Positions 2,191 through 9,392 of a stretch of DNA of 64,000 bases are shown here, one piece after another. The translations under genes and the position numbers were made by a program. The stretch comes from Thalassobius sp. I31.1 (GTDB lineage Bacteria > Pseudomonadota > Alphaproteobacteria > Rhodobacterales > Rhodobacteraceae): the NCBI RefSeq assembly GCF_003031585.1, contig NZ_PWAA01000011.1:1-64000 (forward strand). Direction: 5' to 3'. The stretch's first letter is position 1. Each line of letters opens with the position of its first letter. The notes under the pieces were generated by a model that was given only the letters and a program-made list of their open reading frames with translations, ran no database searches and had not been told where the DNA came from.

Positions 2191-2694
2191 CAGTTTGGCC
2201 CTTTCGTTTGAGCTGTTACTGCTGACCAACGTATTCCCTGCCGCTACTGACGTCTCTGGACGAGATGTAGCCGGAGTCGTTAAGATGTAGCCGAATAGGT
2301 TTCCTGAAAGCGGCCATCGGGGCAAACGCCGTGAATTCACAGTTTGTCCGCATGACCGACGTTTCAGCCAGCAAAAATGCTGCAAGATGCACGAATGACT
2401 GTTTCGACGGGCCGCACCGCAGCATTCGGTGGGGTTGGTCAAAGGCCGCTAAGGGCCGTAAGTGATTGCACCTTTCGCGAACTATATTTGTACTTCTGCA
2501 CAACAGGAACTGGCGGCTTTGAGCCCAAAGCACCGAATGTTGTGCGGCACCCTATCCACCTGTGTTTCTGAGTGCTTTACTCACCGAAGAATGGGTAAGT
2601 TGGGGTCGGCCAGGTATCTGGCCCACTAACCACAATTTTTCCCAATGTTTTTGAAACCGTGCCGAAAGTCCCGGCACTGATTAAGGAGCTTTGG
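2191..2694 (+). other. Gene-poor stretch upstream of the endonuclease gene
   Basis: No convincing gene was seen here. A minus-strand open frame (2216-2533) has no ribosome binding site, and its composition (many Arg, Cys, Ser, His) does not look like a real protein. An AAGGAG ribosome binding site at 2683-2688 belongs to the endonuclease gene that starts at 2695. Confidence 0.5.
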
Positions 2695-4032
2695 ATGGCC
2701 ATAGGATACCAGCCTGATTTCATTGGAGAGACGTTACACATTCCGATGCCAAAGATCGCCGACGAGCAGCTTTTAAAACAAGCTCTGTCGCGCACAAGTT
2801 TGCGAAGCAGCCTTTTTTCTGACCATTTGAACTACACCCTGATCATGAACCGAGACACCAGGCAGTTGATATGTTCGGCGCACAACGTCGATCAAAACGA
2901 AAACATCGAACAGAAAGAGCTGACCGAGGAGGAAAGAAAGAGATTTGACGGATCGAAGGGATGGACGTTCGACGGTGACATAGGTCCTCAGTTTCAGCTG
3001 GGCGATGAGTATTACAAAGACAAAGTCCAGAGTTTTGGGGTGAAGGTCGAAAACCCCTACGACAAAGGCCACATGGTGATGCGTAAAAATGCCATGTGGG
3101 GCAGCTCACTGGAGGAAATGGATGAGGCAGGAAAGGCAACGTACATATATGCCAACGCAGCGCTGCAACATAAGAACCTGAACCGTAGCGAATGGCAGGC
3201 CATAGAGATGGATATCGTTGGTGATCTGAATTTGGACAGCAATGGCCGGCTTTGCGTGTTCACGGGACCGATCTGGGGCCCCTTGGATCGCATTGTTCAT
3301 CATGTGGAAACCGGCGATATCGGACGAGTTCCGTCCGGTTTTTTCAAGGTGATCTGTTTCCACATGAAGGATCCGCCGGACGATGACCCTCTGGGCGTAT
3401 TGACGTTTGCGGTCTTTCAGGATCGCCAAGTCATAGCCCAGCAGAAAGGAGGGCGGATTGTTAAAACCGATCAACGGTATCAGATCACCATCATGGAACT
3501 TGAAGCTCTGACCGGACTCAAGTTTGACAAACGGATACGTGATCGCAATCCGCTAATCTACCAAAAGAAAACTGCGGAAAAGGAAAATGTGATTGTCCGT
3601 CATTTGCCTGAGAACATTCCAATCGCCAATAAAGACGATATAATCTTGCAACTGACGGCGCGGCGGCAACACGTGTTGCCTTTGCCAGACCGGCCGGTCG
3701 CCATCAATGCGGCCATGATCCGGCCCAAAGAGAACAGCAAGATCGGCGAGTGGGTCACGCTTTTTAACAGAACCGAAGATGATGTGTCGGTAGAGGGTTG
3801 GGGCCTGCGAGACATGAAAGGGCGGTCAATCGAGCTCAAAGGGTACATCGCACCGGCAGGGACAATGCGCATTGCGAACGAGGCGCTGGGGAATATCCGT
3901 TTGACGGATACTGGGGGCAACCTGATCTTGCGCGACGCAGACGGTCAGCAGGTCGATCATGTCAGCTGGACAGGACCCGCGATCAAGAAGGTGGCGCGCG
4001 GGACGGCGTATCAGTTTGAAGTAGGACAATGA
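2695..4032 (+). CDS. DNA/RNA non-specific endonuclease (NUC1) with C-terminal lamin-tail domain
   Basis: This is a predicted metal-dependent nuclease of the NUC1/endonuclease G family, 445 residues long. The start at 2695 follows an AAGGAG box by six bases; a longer frame to 2659 lacks such a site. The catalytic motif is DKGHMVMRKNAMWG, with the general-base His at about residue 126, a variant of the usual DRGH. The downstream Asn-rich segment (ANAALQHKNLN) fits the family's metal-binding region. Residues about 330-445 form a second domain (EWVTLFNRTEDDVSVEGW, then a VDHVSW end), which matches the lamin-tail (LTD) fold often attached to nucleases. No signal peptide is visible, so export would need another route. 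It sits among mobile-element debris, which suggests acquisition. Confidence 0.8.
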   Translation: MAIGYQPDFIGETLHIPMPKIADEQLLKQALSRTSLRSSLFSDHLNYTLIMNRDTRQLICSAHNVDQNENIEQKELTEEERKRFDGSKGWTFDGDIGPQFQLGDEYYKDKVQSFGVKVENPYDKGHMVMRKNAMWGSSLEEMDEAGKATYIYANAALQHKNLNRSEWQAIEMDIVGDLNLDSNGRLCVFTGPIWGPLDRIVHHVETGDIGRVPSGFFKVICFHMKDPPDDDPLGVLTFAVFQDRQVIAQQKGGRIVKTDQRYQITIMELEALTGLKFDKRIRDRNPLIYQKKTAEKENVIVRHLPENIPIANKDDIILQLTARRQHVLPLPDRPVAINAAMIRPKENSKIGEWVTLFNRTEDDVSVEGWGLRDMKGRSIELKGYIAPAGTMRIANEALGNIRLTDTGGNLILRDADGQQVDHVSWTGPAIKKVARGTAYQFEVGQ

Positions 4033-5786: not shown

Positions 5787-7137
5787 TTGGAAACCAGGGT
5801 CTCATCAGAATGCACACTCACGCAGGAACGGATATTAAATTTGGCACGTTGCGTCTTACACATTGGTTGGCACAAGACGGGTACGACGTCTATCCAACAA
5901 AATGCATTCAAAAATCGGGACAAATTGGAAAAACTGGGCATCCATTATCCCAGCTGGCATCAAAATCATGGTGCGGCTTTGGTATCTGCATTTCGGAATG
6001 ACGAGGGATATTATTTTGCTGAGACATTTGTCCCACCTCCAGCAAAACATGTGTGTACTGCACATTCAGTTTGGGGGCAGCAGGTGTTTGACAAGGCGAT
6101 TGCAGAAGCCGATGGCAGAACGCTTTTGTTGTCGGGAGAAGATCTGACATTGCTTCATCAATCTGAAATTGATGCGCTGGCAACGGAATTGCAGTCTGGT
6201 TTTGAAACTGTAGATGTGGTCGCTTATGTGCGAAACCATCATGACTATTTGCATAGCACTGTGCAGCAGTTGGTTCGTATGGGTTTTTCAGTTCCAAAGG
6301 TATTGGAAATGGCAAAAGCTGCACCTGCAGATCTGGACAACCTCCGCGTAATGAATCCTATTCCGGAATATGGTTCCAGATTACAGAGTTGGGTCTCAGC
6401 GTTTGGGGCGAACAATGTTCATATCCACAATTACGATCTGCTGCGCGGCTCTGGACAAGACGTTGTGAAACATTTTTTTGGAACGCACTTCGATGCCAGC
6501 GTAAAGTCGATTTTTTCGGAAAATTCGAAGAACACAAGCAACACAAGCTTTTCTGCATCGGCCATATATGCCTTGAATTCATTACATCAAGACATCCCCC
6601 TGATGAGGGAAGGAAAACCCAACGCGAAATTCCTTTTTAATGCGCAACGTTTCTATTCTCAATTGACAGGGCCGGCTTTCCTGGCAGGTAAGCAGTTTGA
6701 AGAGCATTGCAATAATGGGCGAGACAGAGACAGAGATGTTCTGGAAAAGCTACTTTCCCGGGAATCTTTGGATCGCATGTCAAGACCCGCCAGCCTGGTC
6801 AGATTGCCCACAAATGCGATTACCGGAAGATGTAGTGGATACACTTGCAAGTGTTGCTAAAGTCGCCGTTGGCAGTCAGGCCAGAGAAAAATTTTTCGCG
6901 GCTTTAAATGCGTTGACAACTCGTCCTGATGACGACGTTGCTCTTGGAAACCTGCATGTGGCTTTGTTTAATTTAAATGATCCCGTCGGGCTGCGCTCTT
7001 GTGCAAGCTGGTTGGTGCGTCATGAATACTTTTCTTTGGCACATCTTTATCTCCAGAAAGCGCAAAAAGTTGGTGCAACAGCTGCTTCATTGTCGAAGCT
7101 GAAGGCCAAAGTGCGCATTCATATTCCAACGACTTAA
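5787..7137 (+). pseudogene. Sulfotransferase-family protein, frameshifted
   Basis: The N-terminal frame (5787-6860) encodes a PAPS-dependent sulfotransferase-like protein. Its 5'-phosphosulfate-binding loop HIGWHKTGTTSIQ is at residues 25-37 and a second conserved region YVRNHHDYLHS near 150. Homology-like sequence stops near 6780-6830. A second frame, open to 7137 and shifted by one base, carries a helical C-terminal region (VVDTLASVAKVAVGSQAREKFF onwards), so one indel seems to have split a single gene. Two separate genes are possible but less likely, as the second frame has no ribosome binding site. The start is uncertain: TTG 5787, or TTG at about 5840 right before the P-loop. Base composition is AT-richer than in core genes (26 G/C in the 60 bases from 6241). 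Flanking direct repeats suggest transfer. Confidence 0.65.
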
Positions 7138-7413: not shown

Positions 7414-7914
7414 TCAGGTGACGGGCTTGCCTGCGTGGGTCAGCGTAATCGACAGGGTTTTCAGCGCGGCGATTTCAGCGTCAGACAGGGCATCAGTGTC
7501 GCGGGTCAGTTCATGAAGCTGCACAAGGATCCCGGTGATTGCAGACACTTCCTCAGCTGTGAAATCACGATCACCGCGCGCGAAACTTGCGACGGAACGT
7601 GAATCCTGCAGTTCCAGGGCATGGACAAAGCCAAATTTCAGACCATGTTCTGCAGCTTCCGTCAGAACGCCGGCCTCATCAGATCCGGCAAGATTTGCCC
7701 AGGTCTCTGTTCCGTTGTTTTCAAATCCCCAGCGCACAGTCGGATCCTGCATCACGAGGCCCTTGCGCGTATAAATGTCGATCCATTCGCGGCTGTAGGT
7801 CTGGAACAGGAACATGGGCGTTGTAAACCGGATGTGCAGAGCAATCGCATAACCGGCGAGGCAGAGATCGTCCAGTGTGCGCAGGAGTGGCGAAATTGTT
7901 AATTCTTGGGACAT
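7414..7914 (-). CDS. LuxR-type autoinducer-binding protein lacking the HTH domain
   Basis: The 166-residue product is an acyl-homoserine-lactone-binding domain with almost no DNA-binding region. The family's ligand-pocket residues are all present: Trp44, Tyr48, Asp57, Pro58, Trp72 and Gly95. The sequence reaches the first residues of the GerE-type HTH (LSDAEIAALKTL...LTHA) and then ends, where a full LuxR has about 50 more residues. It is transcribed away from a full luxR and luxI. By analogy with the truncated TraR-like protein TrlR of Agrobacterium it could form inactive heterodimers or titrate the signal. The truncation point lies beside a terminator hairpin and a mobile repeat, so it may also be a disrupted receptor. 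Confidence 0.8.
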   Translation of the reverse strand: MSQELTISPLLRTLDDLCLAGYAIALHIRFTTPMFLFQTYSREWIDIYTRKGLVMQDPTVRWGFENNGTETWANLAGSDEAGVLTEAAEHGLKFGFVHALELQDSRSVASFARGDRDFTAEEVSAITGILVQLHELTRDTDALSDAEIAALKTLSITLTHAGKPVT

Positions 7915-7990
7915 TTGTCAGGGCTCTGCGTATTTTGGTTGCATAAAAGATGTGTTTACACCTATTCAGTTATCTATGGCATGTCCTGAA

Positions 7991-8007
7991 GGAAGGATAA
8001 ACCTTCC
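7991..8007 (+). promoter_or_regulatory. Dyad GGAAGG-N5-CCTTCC upstream of luxR
   Basis: A perfect six-base inverted repeat with spacer ATAAA lies in the divergent region between the two luxR-type genes, about 35 bases before the luxR start. It could be an operator or a 5'-UTR hairpin. No known regulator is assigned. Confidence 0.35.
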
Positions 8008-8040
8008 CAAAGGGTAATGATTGGCGAGAAATTTCATTAG

Positions 8041-8649
8041 ATGATAGATAAGGCATACCTGGATTTTCTCACTACTCTTGCGCCGTCCGGGTACTACCTG
8101 GCGATGAGAGTTGGGTTTGCTTTTCCCGTCGCCGAGGCGAATACTCTGCCTTCTGAATGGGTTAATCGGTACACAAGCAAGGGCTATATGATGATGGATC
8201 CGGTTATCCGCTGGGTCTATTCAAATTCCGGCACCGTGCGTTGGTCCGATATACCTGTAGACGACCCAAGGTTGATTTTGCAGGATGCAAAGAAATTCGA
8301 TTTGAATTACGGCCTTGCGATCAGCTGTCAGGGTGAAGGCGAAGATGGGCAGCGCAGCTTTGGCAGCTTTTGCCGGTCAGATCGTGAGTTTTCGGATGAT
8401 GAAGTGCGGATTTTGCATCAGATCATGGGGGAGCTGCATGAAAGCTTCTCGCCACCCAAAAACCTGACCAAAGCAGAGCTGGAAGTTCTGATCATGGTGA
8501 AGGATGGGCTGTTGATGAAGCAAATCGCCGATGATCTGGGGATTTCCCTGGGCGCTGTTAAACAACGTCTGAAAAATGCGAAATTCAAACTGCGCGCGAA
8601 AACAAGCAGTCATGCTGCGGCGCTGGCAATTCAGTTTGGATTGATCTGA
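8041..8649 (+). CDS. luxR: LuxR-family quorum-sensing transcriptional regulator
   Basis: This is a 202-residue acyl-homoserine-lactone-responsive regulator. The autoinducer-binding domain (about 5-130) keeps Trp40, Tyr44, Asp53, Pro54, Trp68 and Gly91. The C-terminal GerE-type helix-turn-helix (about 140-200; LTKAELEVLIMVKDG, then LMKQIADDLGISLGAVKQRL) is complete. The start is fixed at 8041 by an in-frame TAG directly upstream, so the protein is shorter at its N terminus than most LuxR proteins (230-250 residues). It lies 137 bases upstream of luxI on the same strand and is the likely activator of luxI. It is paralogous to the HTH-less protein encoded divergently. Confidence 0.9.
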   Translation: MIDKAYLDFLTTLAPSGYYLAMRVGFAFPVAEANTLPSEWVNRYTSKGYMMMDPVIRWVYSNSGTVRWSDIPVDDPRLILQDAKKFDLNYGLAISCQGEGEDGQRSFGSFCRSDREFSDDEVRILHQIMGELHESFSPPKNLTKAELEVLIMVKDGLLMKQIADDLGISLGAVKQRLKNAKFKLRAKTSSHAAALAIQFGLI

Positions 8650-8786: not shown

Positions 8787-9392
8787 ATGAAAAATGTAAC
8801 CTTTAACCTGACCTCTCTGCACAACCATAATGATGCGTTCTGGGGGTACCTTAAGTTGAGAAAGCACTTCTTTGTAGATCAGCTGGGCTGGGATATTCCA
8901 CATGACAACCAGTTCGAAATGGATCAGTACGACACGCCCGTTGCCTGGTACTCACTGGTTCTGATGTATGGAAAGGTTGTTGGGGGCGCGCGGGTTATGC
9001 CAACCACGGCACGTTGGGGGCAGCACAGCTATATGCTGAAGGATGCTGTCGATGGCAAGCTTGTGGATATCCCGCCAGTGGTTCTTGAAAATGCAATTGA
9101 AAGTGATGGGGTCTGGGAATGTACCCGTCTTGTGATCAGCGATGAACTGAACACCCATGCTTTGCGTTCCGAATGCCTGTCGTTGATTGTTTCCGGTCTT
9201 GCAGAAACGGCCCGTTCGCAGGGGGGGCGTGAGTTGATGTCACTGTCGCCGTTGGCGTTGATGCGGGCTTTGCGTCAGCTCGGGTATGATGCTGGTCGCA
9301 TTGGCGAACCTTACCTGAATCCGGGCGATGGCCGCAAATATGCGGTGCTGTCTATGCCGGTTGAACGTCGGGTGGATGAGCAAGCCGCCTGA
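8787..9392 (+). CDS. luxI: Acyl-homoserine-lactone synthase (LuxI family)
   Basis: The enzyme makes an N-acyl-homoserine lactone signal from S-adenosylmethionine and an acyl-carrier-protein thioester in the cytoplasm. The 201-residue length is typical. The invariant residues are visible: Arg25, Trp35, Asp46, Asp49, Arg69, Glu111 and Arg114. A strong AGGAGA ribosome binding site at 8775-8780 fixes the start. It is downstream of luxR on the same strand and ends before a strong bidirectional terminator. Expression is probably controlled by the adjacent LuxR through the dyad at 8748-8765. Acyl chain length cannot be told from the sequence. Confidence 0.93.
   Translation: MKNVTFNLTSLHNHNDAFWGYLKLRKHFFVDQLGWDIPHDNQFEMDQYDTPVAWYSLVLMYGKVVGGARVMPTTARWGQHSYMLKDAVDGKLVDIPPVVLENAIESDGVWECTRLVISDELNTHALRSECLSLIVSGLAETARSQGGRELMSLSPLALMRALRQLGYDAGRIGEPYLNPGDGRKYAVLSMPVERRVDEQAA

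Follow-up and report, generated by a model that had tools for sequence, protein, structure and literature searches.

The window, as we call the whole 64,000-nucleotide stretch of DNA analysed here, carries a 166-residue HTH-less LuxR homologue that is probably a CerN-type AHL receptor without a DNA-binding domain, which would release the neighbouring full LuxR from DNA and pass the signal on by titration. On sequence grounds, its gene (7414..7914, minus strand) is real, conserved and functional. What is new is the breadth: proteins of this kind (N) and LuxRs of one clade (M) form a widespread, reciprocal two-protein module, usually with LuxI. It is also quite possible, although we lean slightly against it, that N-M represents a second AHL architecture in the host's family, with reception and DNA binding split between divergent genes and N as the operative receptor, that it had a single origin before most genera separated and extends over at least 75 genera, and that it includes a sub-lineage in which N stands before fliG, perhaps on one transcript.

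The locus and its truncated receptor

The HTH-less gene lies back to back with its full-length, CerM-type LuxR partner (M, 202 aa, 8041..8649, plus strand), on whose side a LuxI-type AHL synthase follows (201 aa, 8787..9392, plus strand; PF00765, 43.5 bits), and the two luxR-type genes share a divergent intergenic region of 126 bp (7915..8040). M matches both the autoinducer-binding domain PF03472 (64.5 bits) and the GerE/HTH domain PF00196 (34.3 bits); N matches PF03472 only (42.7 bits, cut-off 23), and a search for PF00196 up to E = 1 found none. The first-pass annotation, which had described a truncated 166-residue receptor beside a full LuxR-LuxI pair, is confirmed by both ORF calls and Pfam, and its statement that the six ligand-pocket positions are kept holds for all of them (TraR W57, Y61, D70, P71, W85 and G113) in both window LuxR proteins. 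It had also remarked that the full LuxR is short at its N terminus, which is true; a profile of 29 partner LuxRs likewise has 202 positions, and the shortness looks like a family trait.

Window N and window M are 34% identical over residues 13-151. The C-terminal end of N lies 29 residues past LHELT, the closing motif of the binding domain, and in the N homologues the end falls a median of 24 residues past this anchor (range 5-43, for the 65 of 71 homologues in which the anchor was found). An AlphaFold model of window N (pLDDT 89.1, pTM 0.85, 35-row alignment) has the LuxR ligand-domain fold, with structural matches to an RhlR fusion (7r3e, Z 14.7), a Yersinia enterocolitica activator (5l09, Z 14.2), LasR (6d6n, Z 13.4) and TraR (1h0m, Z 11.5); the C-terminal tail is modelled as a short strand (157-160) in window N and as a helix in the Cereibacter-type N.

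All 126 bases of the intergenic region are the same in G002, a genome of the same genus, despite a dS of 0.12-0.17 in the three genes (NG86). Within it, just upstream of N, lies a weak copy, matching at 10 of 15 scored bases (7926..7942, minus strand, position mapped by hand), of an element, GCAACC-NN-AAAGCGAGT, whose relatives recur at almost the same position immediately 5' of N genes. Of 65 intergenic regions, 41 had an element scoring at least 10 (39 of these on the N strand), against a mean of 16.6 and a maximum of 23 regions in 30 Markov resamplings, an excess that arises partly by construction because the pattern was derived from those same regions. This element may be a promoter, a leader or a binding site. 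Its likeness to the CerM site TNT(N5)AAGACA(N2)T is partial and too weak for use, and a palindrome picked out by eye (GGAAGG-N5-CCTTCC, 7991-8007) was dropped, as it is not retained in the G001 alignment. The near-duplicate loci L050, L156, L157 and L159 were left out of these element and k-mer counts and of the covariation test described below.

Elsewhere in the window, 2659-4032 encodes a single protein with a DNA/RNA non-specific endonuclease domain (PF01223) and a lamin tail domain (PF00932), and in 5787-7137 two same-strand ORFs overlap, a first one of 357 aa that includes a P-loop-like HIGWHKTGTTSIQ and a second of 146 aa; together they may represent a single sulfotransferase-like gene split between two frames (named by eye; no Pfam match). 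Three more LuxR-LuxI pairs are found in the host genome, L001 (contig C63), L012 (C33) and L006 (C6); the LuxR of the last, a full-length protein with a C-terminus that appears HTH-like by eye, gave no match to GerE at a threshold as loose as E<=10.

Conservation of the HTH-less form and its pairing

With window N as the query, matches were found in 258 of 394 genomes of the host's family (E<=0.001, full-length relatives counted). From the loci taken (60, then 20, six named, 19 partner loci and one locus of the own genome), 85 HTH-less genes were classed as N (50 + 16 + 5 + 14), corresponding to 84 distinct loci, as L160 and L209 are one record. N thereby occurs in no fewer than 76 of the 394 genomes; two of these belong to a single genus, and the count is a lower bound, since classification covered selected fetched loci only. 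Among 385 genomes of the class, two matched at E<=1e-25, both of them family members, so that no homologue was seen there beyond the host's family, and a search of viral_contigs with this single protein as the query confirmed no relatives. A strict C-terminal tail motif, L..[MLQ]S[IV]..T[HR], occurs in 42 of the 85 N and in 0 of 96 full-length LuxRs. As a defining feature of N the conserved tail was dropped, because it is missing from the Cereibacter group and others and because in some N little follows the final helix; the tail identifies just a sub-lineage.

Orthologues of window N in two other genomes of the genus (99% and 75% identity) have the same end point. Compared with G002 (NG86), N has a dN of 0.005 and a dS of 0.17, giving a dN/dS of 0.03-0.04, alongside 0.006 and 0.12 for M and 0.009 and 0.14 for LuxI; in the G001 comparison N and M are saturated at synonymous sites, so that neither has a ratio. 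Other genome pairs gave dN/dS values of 0.07 to 0.17 for N, similar to those of M in one group and higher than those of M in Cereibacter (starts were placed by hand for the N of G001 and the M of L085, L122, L156 and L157). Since N changes faster than M between L122 and L157 (81% vs 94% identity; NG86 dN/dS 0.12 vs 0.04), the constraint on N is real but sometimes looser than that on M.

No HTH remnant was found 3' of the 85 N genes (600 nt, three N-strand frames, E<=10) with a profile made from these same LuxRs; its recovery of 96 of 96 LuxRs shows only that the scan ran, because these control proteins were picked by matching the profile. In the trees, barring the unsure root, the N rows include no protein with an HTH. 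The first-pass annotation had proposed surveying related genomes for conservation of the truncated form under Ka/Ks constraint, and had named a full-length orthologue in close relatives with relaxed selection on this copy as the sign of a recent pseudogene. The truncation is kept across homologues, and neither the full-length orthologue (in the two other genomes of the genus) nor relaxed selection was found when sought. The case against a pseudogene lies in the same gene end in relatives, the low dN/dS against G002 and the lack of a downstream HTH.

N is tied above all to its LuxR partner. An M-type LuxR is present in the fetched region of 84 of the 85 N genes, divergent from N in 81 (read by hand from region listings) and on the same strand in three (L120, L198 and L199), with N alone at L111; at L128, where N forms the last part of an ORF called too long, its orientation was set by hand, and the pair is counted within the 69 divergent regions. 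The reverse search gave 82 M-type matches in 78 of the 394 genomes (E<=1e-60), and 77 of these adjoin an N (63 in survey loci and 14 of 19 in partner loci, matched by hand). Five M-type LuxRs have no N neighbour (L193, L194, L196, L205 and L207, of which L207 lies close to the end of its contig) and would be informative on whether M functions by itself. For 70 of the 85 N genes, profile search detected a LuxI in the region fetched, and 14 of the 15 regions without a match still contain M; the linkage of N is therefore to LuxR. Across 54 loci, distances were correlated for N-M (r 0.53), N-LuxI (0.47) and M-LuxI (0.34), and the N-M partial correlation given LuxI was 0.45, a value as high being reached in 0 of 1000 permutations; this covariation could come partly from shared inheritance of a linked block.

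Only the ligand domain entered the trees, over 130 columns and with 168 rows in one tree and 163 in the other (the smaller set without L001, L002, L004, L006 and L018); the quick method used leaves the root unreliable. M forms one clade (70 rows, SH-aLRT 99-100), inside which window M falls with the Cereibacter partner (SH-aLRT 99). The N rows share one tree region, not one clean clade (two to three changes are needed), and two of them, L080 and L084, branch with GtaR-type (G) and M rows (support 89). Window N, like L122, L156 and L157, falls in the N part of the tree, a placement to be read with the unclean N clade, the 130 columns and the use of C. johrii and G053 as stand-ins for C. sphaeroides in mind. 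The GtaR-type LuxRs (16 rows) are one clade in the 163-row tree (SH-aLRT 92) and need two changes in the other.

W57, Y61 and D70 are present in all 85 N, and 80 of the 85 N and 78 of the 89 M keep the full set of six pocket positions; with these positions kept, N and M could both bind AHL, and the case for N is no weaker than that for M. Position 57 of M is W in 86 of 89 and F in three (L122, L156 and L157), and W57F reads as a trait of the Cereibacter-type lineage, not of the M family. As 86 of the 89 partners have W57, this substitution is not the general cause of a full LuxR ignoring AHL.

Of the 76 N genomes, 47 were searched for fliG, and 22 of them carry it behind N in the same orientation (L053, L058-L060, L062, L065, L067-L071, L073-L075, L077, L081, L082, L087, L091, L092, L100 and L101), consistent with the motility phenotype of CerN. 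Taking the longest ORFs, between which intervening genes are possible, the N-fliG gap is 26-113 bp in 13 loci and 266-886 bp in eight, with an overlap in one, which suggests that N and fliG are co-transcribed where the gap is short. The window's genus is without this linkage, its sole FliG match being on a different contig.

Probable antagonism, signal relay and alternative roles

The closest experimental guide is Cereibacter sphaeroides WS8N, whose CerN has no HTH, according to the sections of PMC11655674 (2024) on which this and the following statements draw. Mutants in cerN or cerI do not swim, deletion of cerM brings swimming back, and the phenotype is one of flagellar motility via CtrA. 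CerN and CerM were pulled down together when AHL was present and, in vitro, the binding of CerM to DNA was weakened by CerN plus AHL, and less so by AHL alone. CerM binds DNA without AHL, and CerN relays the AHL signal by taking CerM off DNA (PMC11655674).

Applied to the window, LuxI (8787-9392) would produce AHL, and while cells are sparse the full LuxR (8041-8649) would occupy target promoters without it. Rising AHL would be bound by the HTH-less protein, AHL-bound N would pair with M through their common ligand-domain dimer surface, and the mixed N-M complex would release DNA. The HTH-less protein would thus be the main reader of the signal, handing it on by titration. From this analogy we infer AHL binding by the window proteins, the heterodimer and its surface, the AHL-free DNA binding of M and the target genes; N is most likely an AHL-dependent antagonist of the neighbouring LuxR. 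The earlier idea of a built-in antagonist is well supported in its core, with conserved truncation, purifying selection, near-obligate pairing with M and the CerN relative in its favour, and gives way in its choice of TrlR as precedent, CerN/CerM being nearer. The accompanying proposal that N sets a quorum threshold is one of two possible signs of the effect; it assumes an AHL-dependent full LuxR, yet in Cereibacter CerN transmits the signal.

Whether N is a brake in the sense of TrlR or a relay in the sense of CerN depends on AHL-free DNA binding by the window LuxR. The relay is favoured because the nearest studied relative acts so, and the brake is its main rival because the pocket of the window LuxR is intact. 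In a brake, M would need AHL to bind DNA and N would form dead heterodimers that raise the quorum threshold. We consider this unlikely, although it has an experimental precedent in TrlR (described in the portions of PMC13043044 and PMC11655674 consulted) and window M, having W57, may itself bind AHL, as may many of the 78 of 89 M with all six positions. It is at odds with the behaviour of CerM on DNA, with GtaR of R. capsulatus, related to CerM and likewise relieved by AHL according to PMC11655674, and with the identity of TrlR to TraR (88%, as given in that part of PMC11655674) vs 34% for N and M, from which the N-M split looks far older than that between TrlR and TraR.

It is improbable that N acts chiefly as a co-factor, stabilising M or helping it to fold and so supporting it, with antagonism secondary. 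A notable fall in the CerM level in the C. sphaeroides cerN mutant (reported in the same sections of PMC11655674) points in this direction, and near-obligate N-M pairing fits a stabiliser equally; suppression of the cerN phenotype by cerM deletion, however, makes the net genetic effect one of antagonism. Still more improbable is a signal sink, in which N would buffer free AHL and contact no other protein: the pocket is conserved in most N, as such a sink would have it, yet N should then track LuxI, whereas nearly all LuxI-less N regions keep M, N-M distances covary beyond LuxI, and CerN was pulled down with CerM (PMC11655674, same sections). That N is a recently truncated LuxR becoming a pseudogene, or a frameshifted full LuxR, has the absent DNA-binding domain and nothing else in its favour, and we set it aside as next to impossible in view of the dN/dS against G002, the lack of any HTH-like stretch within 600 nt 3' of the 85 N, the occurrence of the HTH-less form in so many genomes (class N being defined by the absent HTH) and an N region of the tree into which HTH-bearing proteins could enter only through its unsure root.

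If N relays the signal as CerN does, luxRI loci of the family that are read as ordinary LuxR-LuxI may run the opposite logic, with a LuxR active without signal and an HTH-less protein reading it. CerN/CerM have so far been described in one species; the N-M pair looks ancient. For the wider N-M family our literature search, which lay mostly outside subscription journals, found no description; the three papers it found that mention both CerN and CerM with quorum sensing are PMC11655674, a correction to it and one on an unrelated subject.

Comparison with known systems

Roseobacter luxRI loci of 'D topology' have two luxR and one luxI in the strains listed (PMC3824088, of which we draw on part), a layout that fits the N-M-I loci with fliG behind N; the window locus is unlike it in having no adjoining fliG. 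The terms 'HTH' and 'truncat' are absent from that portion of the text, and the missing HTH therefore seems to have gone unremarked in the 'D topology' work. GtaR/GtaI of Rhodobacter capsulatus and LuxR1 of Dinoroseobacter shibae belong to the same wider LuxR branch, and synteny with these two species is reported for gtaR only (both from the sections of PMC11655674 cited above). GtaR-type proteins are full-length receptors, not accompanied by an HTH-less gene at any locus seen, and form a separate tree group; the host genome has such a pair on contig C33 (L012, L211), named from its place in the tree.

TrlR and TraR of Agrobacterium resemble the window in having a LuxR-type protein without a DNA-binding domain, and TrlR works via mixed dimers (PMC13043044 and PMC11655674, each in part). 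TraR needs AHL to bind DNA, and TrlR is nearly identical to it, whereas window N, over residues 13-151, is no near-identical truncated copy of its partner.

For the comparison with CerN/CerM, Cereibacter johrii JA192 (L156) and G053 (L122, whose N is 98% identical) stood in for C. sphaeroides. The Pfam scores of G053 (65.7; 46.2/40.2; 128.9/61.8; 282.8) lie within 3 bits of those in the consulted part of PMC11655674 (66.1; 47.5/42.9; 128.1/63.4; 281.5), with which it also agrees in gene order and in CerM W57F, and the N and M of both stand-ins fall among the N and M tree rows. At L156 and L122, N and M diverge, and behind M come a CerR-type LuxR and then LuxI; the window locus is a three-gene version without the CerR-type gene that Cereibacter has between M and LuxI. 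Window M has W57, and Cereibacter CerM has F57, for which the authors propose a lowered AHL affinity (PMC11655674, in the sections used); identity to the Cereibacter-type proteins is 36% for N and 39% for M, and the PF00765 score of LuxI is 43.5 bits in the window vs 282.8 in the G053 stand-in. The same sections leave open whether CerN arose by ancient duplication or fast evolution. Shared with the window are an HTH-less ligand-domain protein divergent from a full LuxR of one clade (as seen in the stand-ins L122, L156 and L157), a luxI at the same locus and an intact WYDPWG pocket in the HTH-less member (PMC11655674, as above). CerN/CerM is the nearest known system, nearer than TrlR.
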